Of a stretch of 36,963 nt of DNA, positions 9,751 through 34,815 are shown piece after piece. The notes below the pieces were generated by a model. That model did no database searches and was not told the origin of the DNA. It worked only from the letters and a program-made list of their open reading frames with translations. A program made the translations under genes and the position numbers. The DNA comes from Planctomycetota bacterium (lineage in GTDB: Bacteria > Planctomycetota > PUPC01 > DSUN01). The stretch lies in contig VGYV01000004.1 in assembly GCA_016872855.1 (NCBI GenBank), forward strand, positions 1 through 36,963, given 5' to 3'. Each line of letters begins with the position of its first letter. The first letter of the stretch is position 1.

Positions 9751-10148
9751 GCCGCCCCCTGCGGGGGCTGGGCCTTCCTCCGCTCCACATCCCACGGGCT
9801 CACGCCCGTGGCTATCCCCTGCCGCCTCCTGCGGAGGCTGGGGCTGTCGCCGCCCTTCCCCACGGGCTCACGCCCGTGGCTATCTGCTTCCGCCCCCTGC
9901 GGGGGCTGAGCTCTCCCTTCGCGCCCCCTGCGAGGGTCGGGCCGGTGCCTCCCGCTCTCGCCCCTGCGGTTGGCACTGCGCCCTCGCGCAAGCCCGTCAG
10001 GGCGACAGATGATAGCCACGGGCGTGAGCCCGTGGATGGCGGAGTCTCCCACACCCGAACCCCCGCAGGAGGCGGCAGGGGATAGCCACGGGCGTGAGCC
10101 CGTGGACCGCCGGGACGACGCAACCCCAGCCCCCGCAGGGGGCGGCAG
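9751..10148. repeat. REP hairpin array downstream of the RAYT gene, family C
   Basis: Four copies of the H1 hairpin (CCACGGGCTCACGCCCGTGG or its complement) lie at 9792-9811, 9860-9879, 10016-10035 and 10086-10105. They alternate with H2 hairpins (GCCGCCyCCTGCGGrGGCTG) at 9751-9770, 9821-9840, 9891-9908, 10061-10077 and 10127-10148. The two left H1 units face one way and the two right units the other. Each H1 is preceded, on its reading strand, by GATAG. The unit 9792-9840 has a near-perfect inverted copy around 10061-10105. No gene is seen in 9727-10157. Confidence 0.85.
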
Positions 10149-10157
10149 AGACCTCCA

Positions 10158-10610
10158 TCAATCGAGATAGTGCGCGCGGTCGAACTCGATCCCGTGTTTC
10201 TCGAGCAGCCGCGCCAACTCTCCCTCGAAAGGCGTGCGCCGGTGATGCGCTTCCTGCCGCTCAATGTACTCCACAACCCTCCCTCGATTCGATGCGCTCA
10301 CCGTGAACGAGGCATACCCCTGCTGCCACTCGAACAGCCCCATGCCCCGAACCGTCTCCGCCGCCCATTTCGAGGAGTTGGCCTTCACCTCGCGCACGAA
10401 GTCGGCCACCGCGACCGATGGCTTGACCGTGGCGAGAAGATGCACATGGTTCTTCGTCCCGCCAATGGTGAGGACCGCTCCGCCCACGTTTCGGGCGACG
10501 CCGCACATGTACTGGTGGAGCCTTCCCTTCACGTCGGACGTGATGGCTTCCCGGCGCTCCTTCGTGCTGAACACCACGTGATAGAGGTGGTTCGTGAACG
10601 TGTGGCCCAT
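10158..10610 (-). CDS. REP-associated tyrosine transposase (RAYT, Transposase_17/IS200-like)
   Basis: A 150-residue Y1 HUH endonuclease. The metal-binding HUH motif is HVH at 55-57 (GGTKNHVHLL). The catalytic tyrosine is Y115 in VVEYIERQ, with the metal-assisting Gln four residues on (Q119). The intervening FEWQQGYASFTVSAS (93-107) and QEAHHRRTPFEGEL (119-132) are characteristic of the RAYT branch of the IS200/IS605 superfamily. All catalytic residues are present, so the enzyme could be active. Such proteins cut and rejoin single-stranded DNA at REP hairpins. The ATG at 10610 has AGGAGG 8 nt upstream; the longer in-frame extension reads through a REP. No promoter could be recognised. Confidence 0.9.
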   Translation of the reverse strand: MGHTFTNHLYHVVFSTKERREAITSDVKGRLHQYMCGVARNVGGAVLTIGGTKNHVHLLATVKPSVAVADFVREVKANSSKWAAETVRGMGLFEWQQGYASFTVSASNRGRVVEYIERQEAHHRRTPFEGELARLLEKHGIEFDRAHYLD

Positions 10611-10638
10611 GCCCGTTCCTCCTGTCCCATGAGCTTCT

Positions 10639-10728
10639 GCCGCCCCCTGCGGGGGCTGGGCCTTCTGGCATTCCGTGATCCACGGGCTCACGCCCGTGGC
10701 TATCCCCTGCCGCCTCCTGCGGAGGCTG
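10639..10728. repeat. REP hairpins upstream of the RAYT gene, family C
   Basis: H2 at 10639-10658, H1 (CCACGGGCTCACGCCCGTGG) at 10680-10699 and H2 at 10709-10728, in the same orientation as the left half of the downstream array. Confidence 0.85.
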
Positions 10729-12165: not shown

Positions 12166-12268
12166 ACCCCTCTCCCTTCCAGGGAGAGGGCAGGGTGAGG
12201 GTAGGACCCCGGGATTAGGGCAGGCGCCCAACCCTCCCCTTCCCCCTCCCTGAGAGGGAGGGGGGTTG
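12166..12268. repeat. composite palindromic element, family E
   Basis: The left half contains the CCTCTCCCTTCCAGGGAGAGG hairpin and GGGTGAGGGTAGG. The right half contains CAACCCTCCCC and a CCCCTCCCTGAGAGGGAGGGG-type hairpin. The same composite recurs at 33898-34014 and, inverted, at 19276-19382 inside bax1. Shorter relatives are at 18492-18585 and 34688-34765. It fills most of the gap between the divergent promoters here. Confidence 0.8.
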
Positions 12269-12348: not shown

Positions 12349-12719
12349 GTGGACGTCGAGGGGCACAATCACGAGCAGCTCGAGGCGCTGAATCAGCGGG
12401 GCGGGCGGACTCTGAGCATCGTGGACCTGATTCGGGCAAGGACGCTGAGCGTGGAGATGGCGGCCTGCGCGATGCGGGCGATGGCCGAGGGGGCGTCGCC
12501 GCGTTCCACGAGGCCGATGGCGCGGGCGGCCACCGCCTGGTGTTCCGGTGGGAGGAGCGTCACGACACGTTCGAGCAGGTGGCCCCGCTGCGCGACGAGG
12601 CGGGGCTGGCGCGCTACGCCGCGTTCATCCAGCAGTTGGTGGGGGAAGGCGAAGCCGACGCTGGAGCCATCCGCCGCCGGGCACTGGCTTTCTACAACAG
12701 CGGCGCGAGGACTGCCTGA
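12349..12719 (+). pseudogene. decayed small gene, frame broken near 12500
   Basis: GTG at 12349 behind AGGAGG opens a frame (VDVEGHNHEQLEALNQRG, LSIVDLIRARTLSVEMAA) that loses protein-like character after residue 50 (AMAEGAS). A second frame, shifted by one base, then looks protein-like to the TGA at 12719 (GGVAAFHEAD, HRLVFRWEERHDTFEQVAPL, ARYAAFIQQLVGEGEAD). One extra G in the GAGGGGG run near 12490-12500 would join them into about 124 residues. The N-terminal part resembles the start of a P-loop ATPase family from memory (LNQRGGR, SIVDL), and the break is where the P-loop would begin, so an internal deletion is also possible. That identification is weak. The stop codon lies inside a palindrome. 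Confidence 0.45.
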
Positions 12720-12773
12720 AGGCAGGACTCCCAACGGGTTTGCCCTTGTTCGGAGTCCTGCCTTCAGGCAGTC
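12710..12773. terminator. 22-bp perfect inverted repeat between convergent genes
   Basis: The left arm 12710-12731 (GACTGCCTGAAGGCAGGACT...) and the right arm 12752-12773 are perfectly complementary, with a 20-nt loop. It includes the stop codon of the decayed gene and ends 20 bp before the stop of the PEP-CTERM gene, so it fits a bidirectional terminator. A related GGAGTGCGGCCTTCAGGC motif occurs in the MITE-like element at 34816-34965. Confidence 0.6.
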
Positions 12774-12793
12774 TTGGCTTCCCGGGACGGAGA

Positions 12794-15198
12794 CTACTTC
12801 GCGGCGCGGCGGCGCCGGCGCAGGAGGGCAAGGGCGCCGAGGCCGAGGAGGCTCAGCGTCCCGGGCTCGGGGATGAGCACCAGGCTCACGTTGGCGTACG
12901 CGATGCCGTAGAAGTTGACGCTCGCGTCGAAGAGCGCGCCGAGCGACACGGCGTCGCCCGCCTCCACGGGCGACGGCAACTGGAAGATGGAGAACGGCTG
13001 GGTGCCGTCCAGAAGCACGTCGAGGCTGGTGTCGAGGAATGTCAGGTCGAGCATCCAGCCGGGCATGCCGTGCGCGGCGAGGTAGCGATCGTCGAGGAAG
13101 AGGTAGAGGAAGCCCGTCTGGCCAGCGAGGATCGAGTAGTCCACGAAGCCGTAGCCGCGGTCGTCGTTCTCTGTGCGAACGTAGTCGGCCCCGACGAGTT
13201 CGGGCGGGATATTCGTCCAGACGCCTGGGGCGTCCGCATAGGCGCGCGCGCCCTCGACGAGGCCGCGCGTGACGCCAAGAGGGTGGATGAGGTCGGGGTC
13301 CCCGCCCAGCTTCGACCAGCCGGCCGCCAGGGGTACGCCGGTCGAGAAGCCCGACTCGGCCGGGCCGGGGTTGGTCGGCGCCGCCAGGCTGTTGAGCTGG
13401 AAGATGAGGGCATCCACGTTCGCGCCGTCCTCGCGCTGGCTCACCCGCAGCGTGTAGGTGCCGGGGGTGGACACGGTCCAGACAATGGGGTTCTCAGCCG
13501 GGTCCGCCACGTTCTGCTCGGCTCCGCCGAGCCCATCCCAGGGTCCGTGGCGAAGTTCCCATCAATCCCGTGGTCAAGCTCGTACCAGTCGGCGTGGGTG
13601 CCTCCCATGCCGTCCTTGAACTGCGCCACGTCCACGAAGATCGAGTCGCTCTGGCCTGTGTTCAGTGTGTTGCCGTCCCAGCGCAGGTAGAGGCGGTACT
13701 GGCCTGGCGTGCTGATCACCACGTCGTAGGAGATTGACGGGGGCACAGCGGGGCCGCCGGCGCTCAGGTCGTCGGGGAGGGATTGAACGTACTTGCCGCC
13801 GCGGGCATTGGTGACGAGAGGGCCGGCCGGGCCACGCTCGTCGGGCACGATGAACCAGCCGTCGGCGCCGCCGGCGACCAGGGCGCGGCTACAGTAGTTC
13901 TCGGCCTCGACGACCACTTGGCCGCTCTGCTCGAGGAAGGTCTTCCCCGTGCCGAAGGGGGTGTAGGCGTGGGCGCTGGGCAGGGCGAGTTGCTCGACGG
14001 CGGCGACGCCGTAGAGGGCGTTCGCGCCCGGCGTGTTCTGCGCGAAGAGGTCCACGCTGCCCGCGGGGAAGTTGCCGCGGAAGACGTCGAACCGGGTGTT
14101 GGCCGAGCCGTCGCCGCTCTCGTCGAGCCAGATGCTCTGGCCCGTGCCCTTGAAGCCGTAGGCCGACATCCACTGGTTCATGTTGGCGAGGACCGTGCCT
14201 GTGAGGCGGCTGTCGCGGAAGAGGTAGAGGGTGGAGGGGCGAGCGAGGCCCACGTTGAGGCGCAGGTTGGCGGCGTCGCGGTCGTCGTTGGCGATCTGGA
14301 TGTAGTCGCTGCCAACCAGCTCCGGGTGGGCGGCGGGGAAAACGTTCCACTCGTGGGTGCGGTCGGCGTAGGCGAGGGCGTTCTCGGCGAGCGCGGAGTT
14401 CCTGATGACCGGCGCAACTGGGTCTGTGCCGCCTGTGCGGGTCACGCTGGTGATGAGGGGCGCTGGGGTGGCGGGGAGGGCGGCGGGCGAGCCGCCCTGG
14501 GCGAGGGCGATGATCTGGTAAGGCGTGAGCAAGTGGTCATAGATCGCCACGTCGTCCAGGCGCCCCGGGAAGTACCTCCCGCTGTCGTCCGAGCCGATGC
14601 GCAGGGGGAGGCCGTCGTCGTCAATCAGAGCGTCGGGCACGGTCAGGGTGTTCTTCAGCCCGCCGTTGAGGTAGATGCTCATCTGCTTCGCCGCGCCGTC
14701 GAACTGCGCCGCGAGGTGGTACCACGTGTTGGCCGCGAGGTTCTCCTTGAGGCCCACGACGCGGTTGGTGTTGTTCTGCTTGATGAGGAAGTTCATGCCG
14801 CCCGTGGCCAGATCTTCGAGGAAGAAGTAGGCGTCGCCCTTCTCCAGCGCGCGCCGCGTGCCGCCGCCGAGGGCGACGGTAGGGTTGAGCCACATCGAGA
14901 GGGTGAGCGCGCTGCGCACATTCGCGCCGATAGAGGCGTGATGGGGCACCTCCACATAGTCGTTGGTGCCATCGAAGGAGTAGGCTGTCCCGATGCGGCC
15001 CGCCTGGTTGACCAGCGGGTCGTTGGCATCGGGGCCGGTCGTGCTGCCGAGGCGACCGTGGTTCACCCCGGTCCAGTCGTTGGCCACCTGGCCGCTCGCC
15101 TCATCGAGGGGCCAGTACGCCATCAGTCCGCCCTTCGCGGGGCGACAGGCCACCAGCACCGCGACTGCCAGCATCACTGGGCCTAGCCGGTGTCTCAT
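12794..15198 (-). CDS. secreted LamG-domain PEP-CTERM protein, frameshifted
   Basis: From the ATG at 15198 (GAGGGA 8 nt upstream) the protein has a signal peptide (MRHRLGPVMLAVAVLVACRP) and a LamG/concanavalin-like domain (about 25-220; YWPLDEASGQVANDWTG, FDGTNDYVEVP, GRLDDVAIYDHLLTP). A module containing HPELVGSDYIQIANDDR is followed by a carbohydrate-binding-like region (VVVEAENYCSRAL, YRLYLRWDGNTL). Near 13535-13545 the frame must change by one base: GNFATDP continues as WDGLGGAEQNV in the other frame. One missing base in a C run explains it. The second part repeats the module (PPELVGADYVRTENDDR) and ends with a PEP-CTERM sorting tail: PEPGTLSLLGLGALALL plus an Arg cluster. It is probably exosortase-anchored. 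A sequencing error or a true pseudogene cannot be distinguished here. Confidence 0.75.
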
Positions 15199-15525
15199 GG
15201 CACTTCCCTCACTGTTTGTCAGGACTACAACACTCAACCACGGAAGCGGAGAGCAAATTCCATGCCCCCATGGCCCATCAACCACGAATCCAGAGCTGCA
15301 GCCACATGTGATGTTCTGGCAATCGGTCACGGCGGCAGACGTCTGGCGCGGCCTGCCAAGCGCGCAGCTCCGCTGTCTTGGATTCCAGACAACTACGGTC
15401 GCTCCTGCCCCGTAGCGTGTGTGTAAGAGGCCATCGTTTCTACGCTTAGGGCACCTTCGCCCTCGCTACGCTGGCTGTCAACGGATGCCGACGCCCCGTC
15501 GGCCTACCCGGCTGCGGCGACGCGA
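15199..15525. other. intergenic region without recognisable gene
   Basis: About 330 bp between two same-strand genes. It holds a short hairpin (GCCGACGCCCCGTCGGC, 15486-15502), which may end the upstream unit, and a TTGACA on the minus strand near 15477 without a matching -10. I see no coding region and no convincing promoter for the PEP-CTERM gene. Confidence 0.4.
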
Positions 15526-18466: not shown

Positions 18467-18491
18467 CAATCCCGGGCGCGCAGCTCCTCCC

Positions 18492-18585
18492 CCCTCTCCC
18501 TTGGGGAGAGGGCTGGGGTGAGGGTGCTTGGGCACTTCCCGATCCTGAGGCACCCTCACCCTGACCCTCTCCCCGAGGGAGAGGG
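18492..18585. repeat. large hairpin, family E relative
   Basis: The left arm 18492-18537 contains CCCTCTCCC, GGGAGAGGG-like and GGTGAGGGTGC segments. The right arm 18550-18585 mirrors it with GCACCCTCACC and CCCTCTCCCC. It is a nested palindrome in the gap before bax1. Confidence 0.7.
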
Positions 18586-18615: not shown

Positions 18616-20073
18616 ATGGTGTTAGGGCCAGACTCGGTGCTCACCAGCGAGCAATCCATCATCGTCTATGACGGCGGGCGGGCGTGGCCTGACCGGTTGA
18701 CGCAGCGCGCGCACGCGCACTACCTGGACTACGCGCGGCGGATGCTGGCGGTCTACCAGCATGGGGTCGGCCAGACCCGCCGCGAACTCCACCGCTCGGT
18801 CGAGGGCATCCTCGCGAATGAGCCCGACTGCGATACGCGGCGGATTCAGGCTTTCTGCAAGCTGCTCGATGAGGCGGGGGAGTTCGATACCGACCGCCGC
18901 GGCAACGCCGCGAAGCTGCGCCTGGCAGTCTTCGACCTCGCCGCGCCGCTCCACCCCCTGGTGGAGAGCCGCGACCAGCTTTTCGAGAACACCGAGTCGG
19001 AGGCCAAGGCCCACATCGCCCAACGCCTCGGCCGCCCCTGGCCGGAAATCGAGGGGGAACTCTACGCCGACGTGATGGACTTCCATCGCCTCACGGCCTT
19101 CGAGGGCTACTCGAATGCGGCGGCGCTGCTGCGCCGCTACAACGTCGCACAGCTCCAGGCCGCGCTCTACCGCGCCGAGCGACTCGTCATCGCCGCCTCG
19201 GAGGACTTCAAGACAATCCTCCGCTACGCCAAGCTGGCGCAACTCCTCCACGACATCCGCCGGCTCCCCCCACTCCAACCCCCCTCCCTCTCAGGGAGGG
19301 GGAACGGGGAGGGTGGGGCGCCGGTCCTCGCGGCGAAGTCCCACCCTCACCCTACCCTCGCCCTGGAAGGGAGAGGGGTCAAGGCACCCTTCGCCCCTCT
19401 GCCTGGCGGGGAGAGGGAGGGCACGAACGTCCCGCTTGCCGACCGCAGCGCCCATTGCCAGCAATGGGCTCCCGACGGTTGCGGCTACGTTATCGAGCTT
19501 TCGGGGCCGGCCTCGGTGCTGCGCGAGACGCGACGCTACGGGATCAACTTCGCTCGATTCCTGCCCGCCCTCCTCGCGTGCGACGGCTGGGCGATGCAGG
19601 CGACGCTCCGCACCCCCTGGGGCGGGAAGGCGCTCCTGGCCCTCAGCAGCCGGGATGGGCTTCAGAGCACCATGCCGCCACCGGAGGAGTTCGATTCGTC
19701 GGTTGAGGAGGGCTTCGCCGCGAAGTTTGGGGCCGAGCGCGACGGCTGGCGCCTCGGCCGCGAGGGCGAGGTGCTCGTCGAGGGCCAAAGCGTCTTCGTT
19801 CCCGACTTCGCCTTCCGCCACGGCGATGGCACCGAGGTGCTTCTGGAGATCGTGGGCTTCTGGACGCCCGAGTATCTGGAGAAGAAGCGGGCGACGCTTC
19901 GGCGCTTCCGCGGCCGCCGCGTCTACCTGGCCGTCGCCGAGCGATGCCTGCCCGAGGGCGCGACCGTGTCCGAGGACGTGGTGGTCTACAAGACCGCGCT
20001 CAAAGTGGAGCCCGTCCTCGCCCTCCTCGAGCGCGCCCGAAGGCGGGAAGCACCAATGACCAATGACCAATGA
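18616..20073 (+). CDS. bax1: Bax1-type nuclease (DUF790), partner of XPB, with a repeat-derived internal insert
   Basis: A 485-residue protein of the DUF790/Bax1 family, the endonuclease that binds archaeal XPB. The C-terminal PD-(D/E)xK core is visible: VPDFAFRHGDGTEVLLEIVG with D397 and E411, then FWTPEYLEKK (K423/424). The central ELSGPASVLRETRRYG...FARFLPALLACDGW is the other family landmark. Between HDIRRLP (about 212-218) and YVIELSG (from 291) lie about 70 Gly/Pro/Arg-rich residues with no family character. They are encoded by palindromic repeats at 19276-19488 and remain in frame. The protein is thus longer than expected by about that amount. The Shine-Dalgarno is weak; ATG 18616 is the best start seen. 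It lies downstream of xpb but is separated by an RHH gene with its own promoter. Confidence 0.85.
   Translation: MVLGPDSVLTSEQSIIVYDGGRAWPDRLTQRAHAHYLDYARRMLAVYQHGVGQTRRELHRSVEGILANEPDCDTRRIQAFCKLLDEAGEFDTDRRGNAAKLRLAVFDLAAPLHPLVESRDQLFENTESEAKAHIAQRLGRPWPEIEGELYADVMDFHRLTAFEGYSNAAALLRRYNVAQLQAALYRAERLVIAASEDFKTILRYAKLAQLLHDIRRLPPLQPPSLSGRGNGEGGAPVLAAKSHPHPTLALEGRGVKAPFAPLPGGEREGTNVPLADRSAHCQQWAPDGCGYVIELSGPASVLRETRRYGINFARFLPALLACDGWAMQATLRTPWGGKALLALSSRDGLQSTMPPPEEFDSSVEEGFAAKFGAERDGWRLGREGEVLVEGQSVFVPDFAFRHGDGTEVLLEIVGFWTPEYLEKKRATLRRFRGRRVYLAVAERCLPEGATVSEDVVVYKTALKVEPVLALLERARRREAPMTNDQ
19276..19488. repeat. in-frame palindromic insert in bax1 (family E plus family B-like)
   Basis: 19276-19382 is an inverted copy of the composite at 12166-12268, sharing CCACCCTCACC and CTGGAAGGGAGAGGGGTCA blocks and the CCCTCCCTCTCAGGGAGGG hairpin. 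19425-19488 continues with CGTCCCGCTTGCCG, a GCCCATTGC/GCAATGGGC hairpin and GCGGCTAC, resembling a degenerate family B unit. Together they are read as about 70 residues without a stop. Confidence 0.75.
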
Positions 20074-25672: not shown

Positions 25673-25732
25673 GAACAAGCTCCTGGAAAGAGTTGCGGTT
25701 GTCTCTTCCACGCGACGAACAAGTCCCGAAGG

Positions 25733-25903
25733 GACGATAGGGTTTTGCCGGCGGCGTAAGCCGCCGGATCGCGGAGCGGCCAGAACCAAGCCCCGGAGGG
25801 GCGAAAGGACCCGGCGTTCCTTTCGCCCCGTCGGGGCTGCGCCTCTGGCATCACCCTTCCGGCGGCTCACGCCGCCGGCAAAACCCTATCGCTCCTTCGG
25901 AGC
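25733..25903. repeat. nested palindromic element, family H
   Basis: The outer arms GTCCCGAAGGGACGATAGGG...CCGGCGGC (25733-25767) and its inverted counterpart (25859-25903) enclose a second palindrome, AGCCCC.GAGGGGCGAAAGGA / CCTTTCGCCCC.CGGGGCT (25789-25838). The right arm encodes the last residues (SPAPKER) and stop codon of the PQQ-propeller gene. The left arm lies about 60 bp upstream of the DUF5107 start. Confidence 0.8.
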
Positions 25904-28900
25904 TGGGCTGGGGATGTTCCCCGCCCAGGCGGCCACTTCGGGCTGATGAACCATTGCGAACGAGCAGCGAATGGGGTAGTTGCACACGCAGCCCACCGTG
26001 TAATTGGGCACGCTCACGATGCCGTCGGCCGCGACCAGGCTGTTGCTGCACCCCGAGCGGATATTCCGCAGGTAGTAGCGCGCGCGGGACTGCGCGTCTA
26101 CGTAGCAGGCCGTCGTGTCGCGCATGAGGAAGAGGTGCTGGCTGCCGACGGCGTAGTTGCAGCCGCTCGTCTTGCGGAAGAGGGGCGTCTTGTCGAGGGG
26201 CTTGCCGGTCGCGGTGTCGAAGGGGATGCCACCCTGGTGGACGAACGTGTCCCCGCGGAGGATCAGCGGCTGGGCGCCGAGGGCCTGCTCCCAGACGAGT
26301 TCGCCGGTCGCCGCCTTGTAGGCCCGCCCACGGCTGTACTTGCCCGTGATAAGGATGTCTTGAGCCTCCGAATACGCGAGCCAGTCGTCGTGGGCCATCT
26401 GCGCGGTCCAGCCGCCGATGGCGTAGACGCGATAGGCATTCTCGACGTTTGCGCTCCAGCGGACGGCGCCCGTGCGGGCGTCGAGGGCGAGGATTTCGCA
26501 GGGCATGGTCTTCGGCACCGCCTTGGGGTCCTCCAGCGCCTTGGTCTGGACGGCGGAGGGCGAATCAATGGCGAACACAGTGCCCCGACCGATGGCGAGG
26601 GCGTTGTTGTTGAAGCGCTGCTTCGCCTGCCGCGTCCAGAGGGTCGCGCCCGTCTTGCGGTCGAGGGCGACGAGGAGCGTGCTGTCCCAGAGCCCCTTCT
26701 CGATGATCCGTACCTTCTCGAAGGCCACGGCGACGACGATCACGTCGTCGCCCACGCGGATGTCAGAGACGAGGGGCTTGCGCTGGGCAGGTGGTGGCAC
26801 AGGCATCTTGCCTGTGTCCCCCACAGGCGGGACGCCTGTGCCACCCTGCTCTGCCGCCTGGTAGGTGAACTTCGCCTTCTCGGCGCCCGTGGCGGGGTCG
26901 AGGATGGTGCAGGCATCGTTCGCGGCCACATATATGCCGTCGGGTTGCGCGGCGAAGCGGGTGAATGCCTCGGTCTTGGCCCGCCACAGGTGGCGGCCGG
27001 TATAGGCATCGTAGGCGAAGAGCGCCCGCATCGGCAGTGAGTAGGCAAAGACGCGGCCCCCCACCACCTGCGGCTTCACGCCGATGCCATAGTCGTTGTT
27101 CGTCCAGAACTCGTTCTCCCCCTCCTGCCCGTACCAGAGGATGCCCAGCGGCGCCTTGACCAGTTGGTCCTTCGAGAAGAACGAGCGCGCGGCGTCGCCG
27201 CACTCGTGGGTCCACGAGGCCGAGCCGGCCAGCGGCCCCTTCAGCTTCACCATCGTGGTCTTGTCTCCCTCGACCGAGCAGATCGCGCCGCCGTAGGGGT
27301 GGAGGACGTCGCGGAGCTTCTCCATCGCCTCCCGGCTCGGGAAGCCTGTCTCCGAGACGATCAGGCTGGCGAGGTAGGACGGGAAGTGGGACGCGAAGGG
27401 GTCGCCCACGAACAGCTCGGCCTTCGTGCCGTAGACGCCGGCGGCTACCAGCTTCTCGTGGAATGCCCGCACCTTCGCCGCATCCGCATCCACGCCAATC
27501 ACCCGCAGGTTCGGCTGCGCAACCAGATGGTACAGGAACCGTCCATCGTTGAGGCCGAGGACCAGGGCATAGCCTTCCGACCGTTCGATGGGAACCTGGG
27601 GGAGCTTGGGCAGCGGAACGGTGGCAAGAGGCCATGTCTGCGCCTCCGCCTTGTCGCCGCTGAAGCAGAAGAGGCCGCCCTCTTTCGTGGCGACGAAGAG
27701 CTTGCCGTCGGCGGCGGCCATCGAGGAGGGCGTGCCGTCGAGGGCGTGGTGCCAGACGACACGCGGTTGGCGGCCCTCCGCCGGAAGCTCGACGGCGAGG
27801 AGGGTCTTCCCCGCGTGGCCGTAGAGGCGGTTGCCCGCCTTGATCAGCGCGTCGCTGGCGGGCTTGGACTTCGCGTGCTCGGTCTCGAGCTTCCACAGTT
27901 CGGGCAGGTCCCACCGCCAGGGGCGGGCATCGTGCGTGCCGTGCAGCTTCGTCTCGTATTCCGACACGGCGGGGCGCGCGAGGTCGTAGGCGTAGAAGAC
28001 ACCTTGCTGCGAGCCATAGGCGACGCCACGTTCGAGCGCGGACCAGGCGGAGAGGCCAGGCTGCATCTTGTAGGGGAAGATAGGCGCCTCGAACAGGTGC
28101 ACCTTCTTGACGTCGAAGCGCTTCGGCGCGGCGTCGCCCGCCTCGGCCCAGCGGCTGCCCACCTCGCGGCCCGTCGTGATGTCCACCGCCCCGGCCCGCC
28201 CGACGAAGGCGAGGTTGCCCATCGCCGCCAGGCGGCACTCGCCGTGGCGATAGCCCTGCACGTAGCGGAGCACCTTGCCCGACTTGCGGTCGAGCACGGC
28301 CGGCATCGAGCGGCCGTTGGGCACGAGCAACATGTCGCCCGCGACGGCCAGGTGGCCCTGGGGCGAGAGGCCCGTGTCGAACAGCTCGTTGTGGTCAATC
28401 CGTACCTTCTCGATCAGGTTCGCCTCGCCGTTGCGCCACAGCACGCGGCCCGTCTCGGCCTCGACCGCGGCCACGAACACCCCAAGCGTCGGCCACACGC
28501 CCGCGCCGAAGTAGAGCACGCCATCGGCGAGCACCGGGCCGCCGCGGACCGGCCAGTAGGAGATGAGCCGCGCGTTGCCCAGGTGGTAGCGTTGGGGCCG
28601 GTCGTCGGGCGCGCCCCGCACCTTCCAACGCAGCGTGCCCCTCGCCGCGTCGAGGCAGTAGAGCCAGCCGTCGTCCGAGCCGAAGCATACGCGGTCCTTC
28701 CACGCCACGGGCGCCAGCCGCACCGGGCCGTTGGCGAGGAACCACCAGAGCCGCTCCCCCGTCTCCGTGCTGTAGGCCGTCAACGTGCCGTCGTTCGCCG
28801 AGGCGAGGAACACCCTCTTGCCAAGCACTACCGGCTCATGCGATGCGTCGAAGTGGAGCCGCGGCTCGTTCGGCCAGGCGGGCCGGGGCGGGGGCAACTT

Positions 28901-29047
28901 GCGCATCCAGCGGACGTATAGCTCGGCCGGCAGCGCCTCCGCCGTCGCGCCCGTGCGGCTGGCGTCGCCGCGCCACATCGGCCAGTCGGCGCCCACGGCG
29001 CACGCCCCAAGCATCCCCAACGCGACTCCCATTGCCAGGCGTCTCAT
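25886..29047 (-). CDS. PQQ-like beta-propeller protein with embedded methyltransferase-like domain
   Basis: A 1053-residue secreted protein. Signal peptide MRRLAMGVALGMLGACAVGA. Repeated propeller blades follow (DWPMWRGDASRTG, TGERLWWFLANGPV, GTLRWKVRGAPDD, TGRVLWRNGEANL, TGRHLWRAKTEAF, TGATLWTRQAKQRF, TGAVRWSANVENAY, TGELVWEQALGAQ). Around residues 480-570 the propeller is interrupted by a Rossmann-like segment (GYALVLGLNDGRFLYHLV, LRVIGVDADAAKVRAF, AELFVGDPF) resembling class I SAM-dependent methyltransferases; several catalytic features cannot be confirmed. Near 735-752 a repeat-encoded GGTGVPPVGDTGKMPVPP is inserted. The ATG at 29047 has GGAG 8 nt upstream. It is divergent from the heparinase gene. 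Its C-terminus (SPAPKER) is encoded by a dispersed palindrome. Confidence 0.82.
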   Translation of the reverse strand: MRRLAMGVALGMLGACAVGADWPMWRGDASRTGATAEALPAELYVRWMRKLPPPRPAWPNEPRLHFDASHEPVVLGKRVFLASANDGTLTAYSTETGERLWWFLANGPVRLAPVAWKDRVCFGSDDGWLYCLDAARGTLRWKVRGAPDDRPQRYHLGNARLISYWPVRGGPVLADGVLYFGAGVWPTLGVFVAAVEAETGRVLWRNGEANLIEKVRIDHNELFDTGLSPQGHLAVAGDMLLVPNGRSMPAVLDRKSGKVLRYVQGYRHGECRLAAMGNLAFVGRAGAVDITTGREVGSRWAEAGDAAPKRFDVKKVHLFEAPIFPYKMQPGLSAWSALERGVAYGSQQGVFYAYDLARPAVSEYETKLHGTHDARPWRWDLPELWKLETEHAKSKPASDALIKAGNRLYGHAGKTLLAVELPAEGRQPRVVWHHALDGTPSSMAAADGKLFVATKEGGLFCFSGDKAEAQTWPLATVPLPKLPQVPIERSEGYALVLGLNDGRFLYHLVAQPNLRVIGVDADAAKVRAFHEKLVAAGVYGTKAELFVGDPFASHFPSYLASLIVSETGFPSREAMEKLRDVLHPYGGAICSVEGDKTTMVKLKGPLAGSASWTHECGDAARSFFSKDQLVKAPLGILWYGQEGENEFWTNNDYGIGVKPQVVGGRVFAYSLPMRALFAYDAYTGRHLWRAKTEAFTRFAAQPDGIYVAANDACTILDPATGAEKAKFTYQAAEQGGTGVPPVGDTGKMPVPPPAQRKPLVSDIRVGDDVIVVAVAFEKVRIIEKGLWDSTLLVALDRKTGATLWTRQAKQRFNNNALAIGRGTVFAIDSPSAVQTKALEDPKAVPKTMPCEILALDARTGAVRWSANVENAYRVYAIGGWTAQMAHDDWLAYSEAQDILITGKYSRGRAYKAATGELVWEQALGAQPLILRGDTFVHQGGIPFDTATGKPLDKTPLFRKTSGCNYAVGSQHLFLMRDTTACYVDAQSRARYYLRNIRSGCSNSLVAADGIVSVPNYTVGCVCNYPIRCSFAMVHQPEVAAWAGNIPSPAPKER
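26793..26845. repeat. in-frame REP doublet in the PQQ-propeller gene, family A
   Basis: The outer arms GGTGGCACAGGC / GCCTGTGCCACC are perfect. Each half forms its own CACAGGC...GCCTGTG hairpin. A single GTAG-headed half of this family occurs at 33841-33865. Confidence 0.8.
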
Positions 29048-29093
29048 CGGCTGCTCCACAGACTCCCCGGCCGCCCCTCCGCCGCGACCGTTC

Positions 29094-29121
29094 ATCCTAC
29101 CAAGTCTCCGCTCCCGTGCAA
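29094..29121 (-). promoter_or_regulatory. sigma70-type promoter of the PQQ-propeller gene
   Basis: TTGCAC (29121-29116), 16-bp spacer, TAGGAT (29099-29094) on the minus strand. Confidence 0.5.
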
Positions 29122-29146
29122 GTGGGAGCGAGCGATGGCACTTGCA
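29117..29146. promoter_or_regulatory. inverted repeat between divergent promoters, possible operator
   Basis: TGCAAGTG (29117-29124), 14 bp, CACTTGCA (29139-29146). Each arm overlaps the -35 of one of the two divergent promoters, so a single bound dimer could control both the propeller and heparinase genes. No regulator gene is adjacent; this is inference. Confidence 0.4.
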
Positions 29147-29170
29147 ATGCGCGGCCCGCCGGAGTAGCCT
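29142..29170 (+). promoter_or_regulatory. sigma70-type promoter of the heparinase gene
   Basis: TTGCAA (29142-29147), 17-bp spacer, TAGCCT (29165-29170). Confidence 0.45.
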
Positions 29171-29195
29171 CAGTGCGAAGGAGGCCACCACCGCC

Positions 29196-32024
29196 ATGAG
29201 AACGATCCGCCCCGCCGCGTCCCTCGCGATCTTCGCAATCGTCAGCATGTCGCCCTTCGCCCTCGCTGCGGAACGCGTCGCGCCGCTCGACCTCACGCGG
29301 CACGACCCCGCCGACAAGGTGGAGCTGGCGAAGACCGAGGAGGGGGTGTTCGAGTGGAGCCTGCCGACGGGCGACGCGCAGACGCTGCGCCTCGACTTGG
29401 CGAAGCTGGGGATCGAGCCACAGGACTTCGATGAGTTGCGCTTCGACATCCAGCCCCTCGGCTCGCAGGTCGGGCTTCAGACCACCATCGCGGGCCTGCC
29501 CACGGCGGACGAGGGGAGCCGCTGGTATCTCAAGTTCAAGGCCCTCGCGGGGCAGTGGGCCTCGGGGCGCTACGACCTGCGGGTGGACGACGATGGCTTC
29601 ACTGGCCGTCCGAAGGCTGCGCCCGGCACGCTCGAGCTGCGGCTCTACCGCCGCATCGTGGGCTTCCCAGGTGAGCCGAAGTGGCGCAAGGCGCAGATTC
29701 GCCGCCCACGCTTCGTCCGACGGGTCGTGTCGGTGGACTTCGATCTGTTGGAGACTGAGCTCGTCGCCGACGCGGGCGAGGTGGCCGCGGTCTACCGCCT
29801 ACGGGTAGAGAACCGGACGGACGCGCCGCAGAAGGCGAAGCTGGAGGCGGATTCGGCCCGCACGCTCAAGTGGTTCCGGGCCGAGGCGCCGGCCGAGGTG
29901 GCTCTCGCGCCCCGCGAGAAGAAGGTCGTGCCCATCCGCATCGCCATCCCGCGCGCAATCGCAATGAGGCTGCCGCCCCTCTACGCCGAGCCCGCGGTCC
30001 CGCGGGTGAGCATCGAGGGCGTGGCGGACTCCGACTCCGTGCCGCTGATGGGCTATCGCCCCTGGCCGATGTGGGGCGTGGTGCCGGTGTTCAATCCCGT
30101 GCGGTGGACGCCCGCGACGTTTCAGGCGTTCCTGGACGCCCGCGGGAAGGCGCTCCCCGGTGTCGCCGAGTGGCGGGCACGCGTACTCCGCGAGGCGGAA
30201 GCTGCGGCCAAGCTCGACTGGCCCGTCCCGCCGCTCGAATTGCTGCCCGCGGGCTTCGACCAGTCGTACCGCTGCAACGACTGCCGCGTGTGGCTCCAGC
30301 CCGCCGCACACGCGAGCTTCCGCAAGCACGTCTGCCCCAAGTGCAAGAAGGCCGTCGAGGGGAAGGAGGGGATTGACAAGGCATTCGTCTCCCGCTACAT
30401 CGGCCAGGCGTTCCACGCCGTGCGGACGCTCGCCCTCGGCTGGCCGCTCTCTGGGGACGAGGCGTATGCCAAGAAGGCGGCGGGCGTGATGCTCGCCTTC
30501 GCCGAGGCGATGCCGAAGGTGACGCCTGCCGGCCCGCGCTCGACCGCGGGCGGCGCGCGGCTGGCCTACAGCACGCTCCACACGAGCTACAAGCTCCCCG
30601 ACTTGGCCGAGGCCTGGGCGCTTCTTGCCGAGGCGTCGTGCATCGGCGAGGCGGAGCGCGCGAAGATCGAGCGGTTCCTCAACGACGAGGCGTTCCGTGT
30701 CGCACGCCACAGCGTCGAATACTCCAACCAATCGGCCGAGCACTTCCGCGCCTACGGCTCGGTCGGCCTCGCCACGGGCTTCTGGCCCCTCGCCGCCGAG
30801 GCCGTCTGGGGCGAGTTCGGCTACCACGAGCTCGTCGAGTTCGCCTTCACCGAGGAAGGCATCGGCCACGAGGCGGGCGCCTACCACCGTGCGGTCTTCG
30901 GCGCGATGGCCGAGTTCGCCGAGTTCGCCCACGACCAGGGCGTGAACCTGCTGACGGCCCGCTTCAAGCGGGTTTTCGACGGCTCGCTTCTCACCCTCGG
31001 CGGCGCGGAGGTCTCATACGAGCTGGCCTATCGCGTCTACCGCGACCCCGCCTACCTCCAGGCGCTCGAGCGCGCCCGCCAGCACCCCGGCGAGAGCGCG
31101 GCCCTGCGAGGCGTCCTCGGCATCCCGCGCGCGAGCGAGATGCCCGTCCGCTCCGTCCTCTTTCCCGGCACGGGCTACGTCTTCCTCCGCACGGGCAACG
31201 TCGCCGATTCCCGCGAGATTCGCCTCAACTACATCAAGACCTTCGACCGCCACGAGCGGGACAAGTTCACCACCTTCTTCTTCCGCGGCGGCCAGCAGGT
31301 GGACGCGACGGTCGGGCGCATCACCTACAGCTCGCCCCATTGCGCCTGGATGGAATCCACGGCGGCGCACAACGCCATTGTCGTGGACGGCGAGGACGAA
31401 CGGGAGCAGGACGGCGTGCTGGTGGCGAGCGACCTGGCGGGCCAGTGCCCCATCGCCGCGGTGGCAAGCGACCCGAAGGCGCCGCTCTACGACGGCGTCG
31501 CCCAACTCCGCGGCATCGCCCTCATCGAGGGGGCCTACATCGTCTTCGACCGCGTGACGTGCGAGAAGGCCCGCACCTTCGACCGCTACCAGTATGGCCA
31601 GGGCAAGGCGACGCTGCGGTTCGACGCGAAGAAGCTCGCCGACCTTCCCCGCCTGCCGAAGCGTGGAGCCTTCACCGAAATCGAGGGCGGGCCGTGCGGC
31701 AAGGAACTGCGCGTGGACTTTGCGAACGGCCTCAAGATGCGCCTCGTCTCTGACCGCGAGCTTGCGGCCTACAAGGCCCTCACCGTCGGCGGCTACCAGG
31801 CCGGACCGATGGAGGCCACCTTCGCCCGCCTTGCCGACGCGACCGAGGCCACCTTCCTCGCCGCCTTCACCCTCGGCAAGGACGCCGAGCCCCCTGCCCT
31901 CCGCATCCGCCAAAGCACAGCGGATGCCATCGTCTTCGAGGTCGGCACGCCGGTGGCCAGGCACACCATCGCCGTCCACCCGCGGGCCGGGAAGGCCGAG
32001 GTGAGGGCGGCCACAGGGCAGTGA
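29196..32024 (+). CDS. secreted heparinase II/III-family protein
   Basis: A 942-residue protein. Signal peptide MRTIRPAASLAIFAIVSMSPFALAA, then beta-rich N-terminal domains (about 30-270). The alpha-toroid region (about 340-600) contains a cysteine quartet C360xxC363...C380PKC383 suggesting a bound metal, and YSNQSAEHFRAYGSVG / EEGIGHEAGAYHRAVFG, where heparinase-type lyases have catalytic His and Tyr residues. The C-terminal beta-sandwich part (heparinase II/III-like; IKTFDRHERDKFTTFFF, VVDGEDEREQDG) includes the family's HxxxD-like segments. It probably cleaves uronic-acid-containing polysaccharide by elimination; the substrate is unknown. AGGAGG lies 11 nt before the ATG. It is divergent from the PQQ-propeller gene with a shared possible operator. 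Confidence 0.85.
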   Translation: MRTIRPAASLAIFAIVSMSPFALAAERVAPLDLTRHDPADKVELAKTEEGVFEWSLPTGDAQTLRLDLAKLGIEPQDFDELRFDIQPLGSQVGLQTTIAGLPTADEGSRWYLKFKALAGQWASGRYDLRVDDDGFTGRPKAAPGTLELRLYRRIVGFPGEPKWRKAQIRRPRFVRRVVSVDFDLLETELVADAGEVAAVYRLRVENRTDAPQKAKLEADSARTLKWFRAEAPAEVALAPREKKVVPIRIAIPRAIAMRLPPLYAEPAVPRVSIEGVADSDSVPLMGYRPWPMWGVVPVFNPVRWTPATFQAFLDARGKALPGVAEWRARVLREAEAAAKLDWPVPPLELLPAGFDQSYRCNDCRVWLQPAAHASFRKHVCPKCKKAVEGKEGIDKAFVSRYIGQAFHAVRTLALGWPLSGDEAYAKKAAGVMLAFAEAMPKVTPAGPRSTAGGARLAYSTLHTSYKLPDLAEAWALLAEASCIGEAERAKIERFLNDEAFRVARHSVEYSNQSAEHFRAYGSVGLATGFWPLAAEAVWGEFGYHELVEFAFTEEGIGHEAGAYHRAVFGAMAEFAEFAHDQGVNLLTARFKRVFDGSLLTLGGAEVSYELAYRVYRDPAYLQALERARQHPGESAALRGVLGIPRASEMPVRSVLFPGTGYVFLRTGNVADSREIRLNYIKTFDRHERDKFTTFFFRGGQQVDATVGRITYSSPHCAWMESTAAHNAIVVDGEDEREQDGVLVASDLAGQCPIAAVASDPKAPLYDGVAQLRGIALIEGAYIVFDRVTCEKARTFDRYQYGQGKATLRFDAKKLADLPRLPKRGAFTEIEGGPCGKELRVDFANGLKMRLVSDRELAAYKALTVGGYQAGPMEATFARLADATEATFLAAFTLGKDAEPPALRIRQSTADAIVFEVGTPVARHTIAVHPRAGKAEVRAATGQ

Positions 32025-32444: not shown

Positions 32445-34442
32445 TCACTCCAGGCCCGAGGGAACGCTGACCGTCTGCCCGATGGCTGGTGGAGTGAAGG
32501 GCACGAAGGCGCCGCGGCGGCAGGCGAACCAGCGAAGGGAAGGGTCTTCGAGCAGGACGCGGAAGCGGAAGGCGGCCTCGGCGGGCCGGCCGTCGGGCGT
32601 GAGGGCCGTTATCTCCACGGTCGCCGCCGTCAACTCCACCTTCTCGCCCAGGCGCATCGGGTGGTCGGGGCCGCGGAAGAGGATGTCGAAGAAGCGGACC
32701 ATGTGGGCGAAGGAGAACGCGGCGGGCGGCCGGCCAGGGTCGGGCGAGCCGCCCAGGGGCAACAGGTAGCCGGCCGCCGGCCGCACGACGAGCGTGCGCT
32801 CGTCCGACCGCGTGATGGCGACGGGTGCCGAGGACGGCCCGAGGCTGAGGCAGCGCTCGGGCACGGGCCGGCCGTCCCTCATCCGCGTGAGCATCCAGAG
32901 CATGTGGCTGCACGCGGCGGGGTTGACGAAGACGAACGTCTGCCCCGGCGCCTCAGGGCCGGGGTCCAGCGCGGCATAGTGGGTCTCCACCAGCTTGCCC
33001 ACGAACCAGATGCCCGCCGTCCGCACGGGAAAGAGCAGCGGGGCAAGGACAAGGTGGAGGGCGACGAAGAGCGCGGCGAGCGCGCGGGCGAGGCCCCGCC
33101 ACGCCCTGGCCTTTGGCAGCCACTCGGCCTTGGCCCGCACGCCGCCGAGCCACATGGCGAGGAGGCCCATCGCCCCCAGGCCAGGGAACATCAGGAGGCG
33201 ATTCATCGGGAACGCCGCGCACACGGGCGCCACCGAGAGCGCCATCCCCAGCGCCCAGAAGCGGGCCACGCGGCCGCGGCGGACGAGTGGCGCCAGCAGG
33301 ACTCCCAGGAGAATCAGGAAGGCGACCGCCCAGACCCACAGCCCGCGGAAGGCAGCCGCCGAGAGCATCGAGCTGATGTCGGCCTCGGGAAAGCCCCACT
33401 GAGCCGCCAGCAGCACAGGCGCGTTTCGGACGACTCGCCCGGCGAAGGCAAGCGGGGCGTGGCCGGGGTCAACGTACATCGCCGAGCCCACGACGCCTAG
33501 GCCGAGGGCCTTGTAGGCGGCGCACCAGGCGATGCCCACGAGAGCACAGGGCGCGAGCGCCGCCAGGCGCCGGCGCCACGGCGCGGGGTCGAGGAAGGCG
33601 GCGTAGGCGAGGAGATAGGCCCCGACGCCCACGGCCTCCTCCTTGGCCAGGAGCGCCGCGGCGAGGGCGAGCGGAGCCAGGAGCGCGCCGGGGCGCCAGC
33701 CGTCGCGCCGCCAGCGATCATGGGCGAGGATAGCCAGGAAGCCAAACACACCGGCGATCAGCGCATTGCGGTTCGACAGCCAGCCCGCGGGCCACGCGTG
33801 GCCGTTGTCGAGTGTGAATAGCAGCGCCGCCAGCACGGCCGGCACAGGCGGGATGCCTGTGCTACCCTCGACCCCTGCGAGGGAGCGGGGTGCCTTGACC
33901 CCTCTCCCTTCCAGGGAGAGGCCGCCTCGGCCGCGAGGCGGGTGAGGGTTGGGCCCTGGGGCGGCACAGGCCCCAACCCTCCCCCTTCCCCCTCCCTGAG
34001 AGGGAGGGGGGTTGTGGCCCATGAGCCGCCGATAGAGCGTCGCCGCCGTCCAGAGCAGCGCGGCGAACCAGAGCAGGCTATGGACGTGCATGAGGGCGGG
34101 GCAGTCGTCGAGCACGCGGAAGTCGAGCAGGTGCGTCAACGCGGCCAATGGGCGGAAGAAGGCGGCCCGGGCCCGCGGATACATCCACCAGGGCACGTAG
34201 CCCTTATCCATCAGCGCGTGGTTCTGCGCGGGGTCGCCGTTGAAGAAGGTGAACGGCTCCCACGGCCCGCGGCGGACCCCCTCGGCGGGGGAGAGGCGGA
34301 GCGCTGCCCCGCGAATCATCAGGTCATCGGTCTGGAGGCCGATGAAGAGCGAGGGCGAGGCGAGCAGCAGCCCGAGCGCGACCAGGAGCCCCCGGTAGCG
34401 CCGGCCCGCCATCCATTCGCACAATCGCGCGAGCCTGCTCAT
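32445..34442 (-). CDS. multipass membrane protein, GT-C-like, with repeat-derived insert
   Basis: A 665-residue protein with about ten hydrophobic helices (for example GLLVALGLLLASPSLFIG, LLWFAALLWTAATLY, ALLAPLALAAALLA, GLWVWAVAFLILLGVLLAPL). An acidic TDDLMIRG follows the first helix, as in GT-C glycosyltransferases, and the C-terminal soluble domain is about 180 residues (from about 485). Glycosyl transfer from a lipid carrier is therefore possible but unproven. Residues about 142-201 are encoded by dispersed repeats (PPPSQGGGRGRVG, LEGRGVKAP, GSTGIPPVP) and fall between membrane helices, so the topology could be kept. The ATG at 34442 has only a weak Shine-Dalgarno (GAAGTGA), and no promoter is evident. 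Confidence 0.65.
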   Translation of the reverse strand: MSRLARLCEWMAGRRYRGLLVALGLLLASPSLFIGLQTDDLMIRGAALRLSPAEGVRRGPWEPFTFFNGDPAQNHALMDKGYVPWWMYPRARAAFFRPLAALTHLLDFRVLDDCPALMHVHSLLWFAALLWTAATLYRRLMGHNPPPSQGGGRGRVGACAAPGPNPHPPRGRGGLSLEGRGVKAPRSLAGVEGSTGIPPVPAVLAALLFTLDNGHAWPAGWLSNRNALIAGVFGFLAILAHDRWRRDGWRPGALLAPLALAAALLAKEEAVGVGAYLLAYAAFLDPAPWRRRLAALAPCALVGIAWCAAYKALGLGVVGSAMYVDPGHAPLAFAGRVVRNAPVLLAAQWGFPEADISSMLSAAAFRGLWVWAVAFLILLGVLLAPLVRRGRVARFWALGMALSVAPVCAAFPMNRLLMFPGLGAMGLLAMWLGGVRAKAEWLPKARAWRGLARALAALFVALHLVLAPLLFPVRTAGIWFVGKLVETHYAALDPGPEAPGQTFVFVNPAACSHMLWMLTRMRDGRPVPERCLSLGPSSAPVAITRSDERTLVVRPAAGYLLPLGGSPDPGRPPAAFSFAHMVRFFDILFRGPDHPMRLGEKVELTAATVEITALTPDGRPAEAAFRFRVLLEDPSLRWFACRRGAFVPFTPPAIGQTVSVPSGLE
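33841..34014. repeat. in-frame composite insert in the membrane protein gene (families A and E)
   Basis: 33841-33865 is a single family A unit: read on the minus strand it is GTAG plus the CACAGGCATCCCGCCTGTG hairpin. 33898-34014 is a full family E composite, matching 12166-12268 and, inverted, the bax1 insert. No stop codon interrupts the reading frame across it. Confidence 0.8.
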
Positions 34443-34510
34443 TTCACTTCGGCCTAGTCCATTTCGGACGCTCCCGCTGGGCACCCGGACGTGTGCGCCA
34501 GTGGCAGGAG

Positions 34511-34544: not shown

Positions 34545-34687
34545 GTTCCGCCCCTACCGGTGCCCGCCAGACAGCCATTTCTCACGCAGCACACTGCGGC
34601 AGCGCGCGGTTCTCCGACACAGGGGCGGCCTGCGCCAAGAGTATGGCCCCCGATTCTGGTGAGCTTGCTGGAAGCTCCTGAGCCCGA

Positions 34688-34765
34688 CCCTCTCCCTACC
34701 CTCTCCCTACAAGGGAGAGGGGTCCTAACCCCCTCCCTACCAGGGAGGGGGTAGGGGGAGGGTTG
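34688..34765. repeat. family E relative
   Basis: Direct ACCCTCTCCCT units followed by AAGGGAGAGGGGTC, then CCCCCTCCCTACCAGGGAGGGGG and GGGGGAGGGTTGGAG. This is the same block order as the composite elements. Confidence 0.7.
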
Positions 34766-34815
34766 GAGCTTGCCAATACCCCAGAGCGCCAGGAATGGGG
34801 GCCACACTCCTGCGC

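Follow-up and report, generated by a model that had tools for sequence, protein, structure and literature searches.

We analyzed a 36,963-nt stretch of DNA from a member of the Planctomycetota (contig VGYV01000004.1 of assembly GCA_016872855.1, positions 1–36,963), referred to below as the window. Near its end it contains a gene for a multipass membrane protein, into which a composite of repeat elements is inserted. The gene and the parts of the insert are:

32445–34484, minus strand: host gene, an ORF for a multipass membrane protein of 679 aa, interrupted in-frame at residues ~157–211
33898–34012, minus strand: BoxC/PIT inverted pair in a 115-bp variant (ACCCCCC...GGGGT), matching the 101-position family profile over its full length
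33977–34010, minus strand: left triplex-type unit, CCCCCTCCC-TCTCA-GGGAGGGGG-AA-GGGGGAGGG, by sequence the three-strand covariant C-G.G form
33899–33948, minus strand: right unit, inverted, consisting of CCCTCACCC, an 18-nt extra hairpin GCCTCGCGGCCGAGGCGG and then CCTCTCCCTggaAGGGAGAGG (sequence and DNA fold)
~33866–33897, minus strand: degenerate partial unit or linker (TCAAGGCACCCCGCTCCCTCGCAGGGGTCGAGG), which looks like the beginning of a second copy in tandem
33843–33865, minus strand: GTAG-headed, REP-like hairpin GTAGCACAGGCATCCCGCCTGTG, read as TGIPPV, with 23 relatives

Read along the minus strand, the BoxC pair is followed by the degenerate partial unit and then by the GTAG hairpin. 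The 18-nt extra hairpin of the right unit was also found in other copies of the repeat. Folded as single-stranded DNA, the copy at 33898–34012 reached a z-score of -6.4 relative to shuffled sequences.

The 679-aa protein gave no match in a Pfam search. Its orthologs, taken from five genomes within the phylum (G018, G023 with two, G005, G002 and G025; all distant relatives), aligned on both sides of residues 157–214 and lacked the insert. In the best of them (G018), query residues 18–156 and 215–674 were matched by two pieces separated by just 9 nt. By the alignment, the gene has gained a net 55 codons (165 nt), none of them a stop. The insert occupies a short loop with a hydrophobic segment on each side (RLMG | AVLAALLF). 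A near-identical empty site was not seen among the compared orthologs, because these are distant, and the sole genome of the same family yielded no ortholog of either the membrane gene or the DUF790 gene described below. Stops are rare at high GC, and one might take the gene for a pseudogene whose 55-codon insert is read through by accident. The full-length ortholog alignment on both sides without stops, a net length that is a multiple of three and the coding potential of both flanks make this very unlikely; the gene is no obvious pseudogene.

The window contains a second gene with an in-frame copy, as well as further copies outside genes:

18616–20073, plus strand: bax1-type gene (DUF790, PF05626; Pfam E = 8.9e-84)
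19278–19379, plus strand: BoxC inverted pair in its 102-bp form, in-frame in the DUF790 gene; full-length profile match, read through
18489–18585, plus strand: BoxC pair adjoining the bax1 start; profile match, exact core motif on both strands
12166–12266, minus strand: full-length intergenic BoxC pair; profile match, and a match to E. coli BoxC of 90–93% over ~41 nt
34672–34779, plus strand: rearranged, outward-facing pair of BoxC units, intergenic; profile match

Eight aligned DUF790 orthologs lack all or nearly all of the ~66-residue insert. Since the orthologs are without it in both cases, the extra sequence was inserted and does not belong to the conserved portion of the membrane protein or the DUF790 protein. 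The junction TCAAGGCACCC of the linker at 33866–33897 is common to the bax1 copy. The right half of the membrane-gene copy is read in phase 0 (LEGRGV-KAP) and its left half in phase 2; in the bax1 copy both halves are in phase 0. Several statements of an initial annotation of this DNA are borne out by these data, namely that the composite of the bax1 insert recurs beside a GTAG-headed hairpin in the membrane gene, that the LEGRGVKAP half has one frame and orientation in both genes while the other half differs in frame (phase 2 versus 0), and that the two are independent in-frame hits in unrelated proteins.

To describe the repeat we built a family profile of 101 positions from copies in the source genome. 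The ends of the pair are sharp, in the form ACCCCCCTCCCTCTCAGGGAGGGGG(C)AGGGGGAGGGTTGGG - ~30 nt - CCCACCCTCACCC(TA)CCCTCTCCCTGGAAGGGAGAGGGGT. Most copies are 100–102 bp long, and in a variant of 109–115 bp an extra hairpin replaces the TA. The repeat occurs well beyond chance expectation: 70 copies were counted in 2.31 Mb of sampled sequence (~30 copies/Mb), blastn gave 58 matches in the genome, and a scan for the exact core motif 136 sites in the genome (none for the reversed pattern). No target-site duplication was found, as matching flanks of 2–9 nt were not in excess at 31 copies. An Rfam search of the window returned no family for the BoxC element; its only hits were to Acido-Lenti-1, elsewhere in the window. 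Full-length copies of 87–94 bp were nearly restricted to genes, other copies being mostly 100–102 bp; the spacer of these in-gene copies may have been shortened after insertion, or they may form a separate subfamily. At locus L107 a gene with LysW-like zinc ribbons (12461–15361, minus strand) carries BoxC at 13886, 14225 and 14564, spaced by exactly 339 nt, as if tandem duplication had acted on a block of 113 codons that includes the repeat.

Triplex-type repeats of the BoxC/PIT kind were first described in the 1990s. BoxC, PIT and the G/C-rich intrastrand triplex motif TM_ECO are the same element (Hoyne 2000; Holder 2015, PMC4666352). In E. coli, motif 12 reads CCCTCTCCCTTCCAGGGAGAGGGTCGGGGTGAGGGT and forms an inverted pair with motif 13 that is 100 bp long by coordinates; the inverted pairs there measure 85–129 bp according to the coordinates in Table 1 of the same paper, and triplex formation has been shown in vitro for the E. 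coli motif (PMC4666352). Motif 12 is nearly identical to the repeat unit of our source genome. A blastn search with a window copy matched E. coli chromosomes (4227/5426 genomes), the best matches having 90–93% identity over ~41 nt. The units follow the plan CCCTCTCCC - loop - GGGAGAGGG - loop of 2–4 nt - GGGTGAGGG (or its covariant form), with loops of 3–7 nt and 2–4 nt in 114 units of the sampled genome. The left unit of the membrane-gene copy fits this plan, and in the right unit the second loop is the 18-nt hairpin. Inverted '+-' pairs, for which ~85–130 bp would be expected, numbered 21 and mostly measured 94–102 bp. By its sequence, the element is an inverted pair of BoxC/PIT intrastrand-triplex motifs.

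The third strand mirrors the purine arm of the hairpin and is triplex-capable by sequence, 208 of 228 triads being allowed. At one stem position in the source genome, C-G pairs were accompanied by a third-strand G in 20/22 cases, which partly stem from one left-half lineage. Units at DUF559 loci (see below) also showed covariation of the third strand, with counts of 57:0 versus 0:5 and 52:1 versus 0:4, and here it arose in several genomes. This covariation of hairpin and third strand supports a constraint acting on each of the three strands. BoxC units at the DUF559 loci L364, L366, L354, L381 and L389, which come from several genomes, contain C-G.G triads at one or the other variable position.

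In E. coli K-12, BoxC is reported to be always intergenic and unconnected to mobile elements (PMC4666352). This description, made for that strain, does not extend to the source genome, where 15 copies in 14 genes were read through without stops and had same-frame coding potential on both sides. Coding frames of the flanks were assigned by a codon model trained on the genome, not from expression, and the frame statistics are based on the 2.31 Mb together with hit-centred loci. The host genes are unrelated. They include a histidine kinase (with the copy after HisKA positions 3–35), DUF2400, an RNase HII-like gene, a GH42M-containing gene, the linker of a B12-binding/radical-SAM protein, a hydrazine-synthase-alpha-like gene and others.

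The initial annotation had concluded from the agreement between the two window genes that one coding orientation is selected or tolerated, and had proposed a genome-wide count of orientation and frame in genes. This count showed no preferred coding direction among the 14 genes. The element was in sense orientation in eight and antisense in six, in at least four frames: five sense genes used the LEGRGV frame, three the PGRERG frame and none the third, and the antisense genes were distributed 5, 0 and 1. Among 35 non-genic copies, the frames were stop-free in 34, 34 and 18 cases (sense) and 22, 10 and 12 cases (antisense), and in a simulated multinomial test the in-gene counts agreed with this availability (p = 0.30). 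The chance that two in-frame copies agree in both orientation and frame is 0.20. For these reasons the agreement between the membrane gene and bax1 is unremarkable and selection for one orientation is unsupported. The sample of 14 genes is small, and a mild bias in orientation or frame is compatible with it. That the LEGRGVKAP reading is a useful peptide with a selected coding orientation would account for the shared frame of the right half in both window genes; six of the 14 genes being antisense, three more using the other sense frame, the fit to availability and the lack of relationship among the host proteins render it extremely unlikely.

Copies were depleted in genes. Only 10 of 56 unbiased loci (18%) lay in a gene, compared with 65% of random 101-nt stretches judged by the same gene criteria (p = 7e-13). 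We read this depletion as selection against in-gene copies (or a preference for intergenic sites), the survivors being tolerated in-frame.

The hairpin adjoining the BoxC pair is of a different type. With up to three mismatches, 23 copies of the hairpin at 33843–33865 were present in 2.31 Mb (reversed control 0), most of the others starting with GTGG. Its GTAG head, a hairpin in the range of 20–40 nt and its many copies place it among the GTAG REPs; the main element (33898–34012) ends in ACCCC...GGGGT and does not belong there. Two GTGG/GTAG-type REP hairpins form an in-frame dimer (GTGVPPVGDTGKMPV) at 26794–26844 within the ORF 25886–29449 (minus strand), where a second, putative REP family likewise decorates coding sequence. 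The matches to the Rfam 'sRNA' Acido-Lenti-1 (9860–9907, 9991–10035, 25722–25767 and 25859–25904) are inverted dispersed hairpins, and two of them lie near an IS200-like Y1_Tnp ORF (10158–10691); what Rfam lists as an sRNA family may in fact be a RAYT-associated REP.

Y1_Tnp had 19 matches in the genome, one of them inside the window. Together with the GTAG hairpin next to the element, this could suggest that a RAYT (Y1 HuH) transposase spread the BoxC copies as it does GTAG REPs. We examined RAYT as the BoxC mobilizer and rejected it, as none of the 19 Y1_Tnp loci holds a BoxC copy. BoxC also has no GTAG head, and the hairpins flanking the window's Y1_Tnp ORF belong to another family; spread by RAYT is unlikely.

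An exact pattern scan found the BoxC core in Proteobacteria, Cyanobacteria, Chloroflexi, Planctomycetes, Verrucomicrobia, Armatimonadota, Nitrospirota, Omnitrophota, Atribacteria and more. At these loci, too, the inverted pairs mostly measured 88–118 bp. In other genomes, 33 of 127 flanked BoxC groups, some in each orientation, are located within long dominant ORFs. Several of these ORFs were confirmed as genuine genes by Pfam, among them those for PriA, calcineurin-like phosphoesterases from two Omnitrophota, a VgrG-like protein and a MiaB-like protein. In a PriA helicase gene of Candidatus Gastranaerophilales (locus L240, 1774–4404), DUF559 and two BoxC motifs lie in-frame between the protein's own domains.

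Because this PriA example holds a DUF559 domain between two BoxC motifs, we tested DUF559, a Vsr-like PD-(D/E)XK domain (PMC12907096), for an association with BoxC. Across 294 genomes of the phylum, strong matches (E < 1e-25) occurred in 20/37 BoxC-positive and 22/257 BoxC-negative genomes (Fisher p = 4e-10). Around 30 DUF559 loci of the phylum, picked regardless of BoxC, a BoxC unit lay within 130 bp at 17 and on both sides at 10; 31 of 51 BoxC units were adjacent, compared with 9% expected. A further set crossed phyla and drew on genomes chosen for the presence of BoxC, not for BoxC near DUF559; its 30 loci include the PriA locus from which the idea arose. DUF559 was present in 40/49 named BoxC-positive genomes from many phyla. 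BoxC lay within 150 bp of 22 of the 30 loci and on both sides of 15, and 41/46 units were adjacent versus 10% expected (p = 3e-35). Two-sided loci span 409–553 bp, and 14/15 have the '+ -' polarity of the short pair. Unflanked DUF559 proteins clustered on the tree.

The BoxC-DUF559-BoxC arrangement, a candidate autonomous relative with the same ends, exists in other genomes; the source genome (assembly 89.5% complete) had no match to DUF559 or MTES_1575. Given this absence, its copies may be relics, or the nuclease may be unassembled. E. coli, a BoxC carrier, is not among the control genomes reported as DUF559-positive. Since DUF559 genes from different phyla are enclosed by two BoxC units oriented exactly as in the short pair, we lean towards a spread of BoxC pairs by the DUF559 nuclease acting on the hairpin/triplex ends. 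BoxC may well represent the ends of a minimal element, with a ~450-bp BoxC-DUF559-BoxC form being autonomous and the 100-bp pair its non-autonomous form; to this we assign slightly better than even chances. Judged by titles and abstracts, none of the 14 papers found to mention DUF559 is about BoxC/PIT. The putative link between the two is new, and gene position and co-occurrence support it.

Homing enzymes with a Vsr fold exist, for example I-Bth0305I. DUF559 could likewise be a homing-type nuclease gene that invades existing BoxC pairs as its target site, BoxC itself spreading otherwise. Such an invasion would agree with the Vsr-like PD-(D/E)XK domain (PMC12907096), with DUF559 taking the spacer position of a BoxC pair at unchanged polarity and with BoxC occurring without DUF559 in genome G000. 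The presence of DUF559 in most BoxC-positive genomes tested across phyla exceeds what a passenger would need, and we regard the homing scenario as possible though doubtful.

Based on these results we propose the following history of the insert. BoxC pairs would have been spread by a DUF559 nuclease acting on their hairpin/triplex ends. The insertion in the membrane protein, made up of a BoxC pair, a partial second unit and a GTAG hairpin, lies in a short loop. Selection presumably removed frame-breaking copies, and the survivors would be those tolerated in loops and linkers, so that the peptide would have no selected function. We consider it probable, and hold with good confidence, that the insert is a dispersed, selfish-looking MITE-like repeat (inverted BoxC/PIT pair, ~101–115 bp), accompanied by a partial unit and a REP hairpin of the GTAG type and tolerated in-frame. 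An unexplained in-frame insert is thereby placed in a well-known repeat class. BoxC/PIT, by report strictly intergenic in E. coli, is found as an in-frame passenger of real proteins in several phyla, and therefore recurrent database peptides such as PSPxPxGEG are likely derived from repeats and are not domains. DUF559 becomes a testable candidate for the spread of a pan-bacterial triplex-type repeat.

The closest known system is BoxC/PIT of E. coli, which has the same nine-base blocks (CCCTCTCCC, GGGAGAGGG, GGGTGAGGG), the same loop TTCC(A) and inverted pairs of ~100 bp, and which likewise shows no strand bias and has no known function (PMC4666352). Unlike in E. coli, 14 genes here have in-frame copies, the left unit is of the covariant C-G.G form, and an association with DUF559 is seen in other genomes. 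GTAG REPs are high-copy palindromes that form dimers, occur in-frame in unrelated proteins and reach into the PVC superphylum (Opitutus terrae) (Di Nocera 2013, PMC3733652). BoxC resembles them in its high-copy palindromes, dimers and in-frame copies, and the hairpin at 33843–33865 is of their type; in contrast to them, BoxC has no GTAG/CGTC head, possesses a third, G-rich strand and was not seen in association with RAYT. The in-frame BoxC copies extend the E. coli picture, in-frame REPs being already known (PMC3733652; RPE).

With classical MITEs (Correia, ERIC, Nezha) BoxC shares a non-coding element of ~100 bp and a longer, nuclease-bearing candidate counterpart in other genomes. It differs in showing no target-site duplication and in a counterpart that encodes a Vsr-like nuclease and not a DDE transposase. 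Rickettsia palindromic elements (RPE) are palindromic repeats found in-frame in many unrelated ORFs; insertion of this kind was also observed here, in a different host, the likeness being one of description. Vsr-fold homing endonucleases such as I-Bth0305I are comparable in that a small Vsr/PD-(D/E)XK-type nuclease serves as a selfish gene; DUF559 differs from them in being framed by two inverted triplex motifs, and homing by it is putative.
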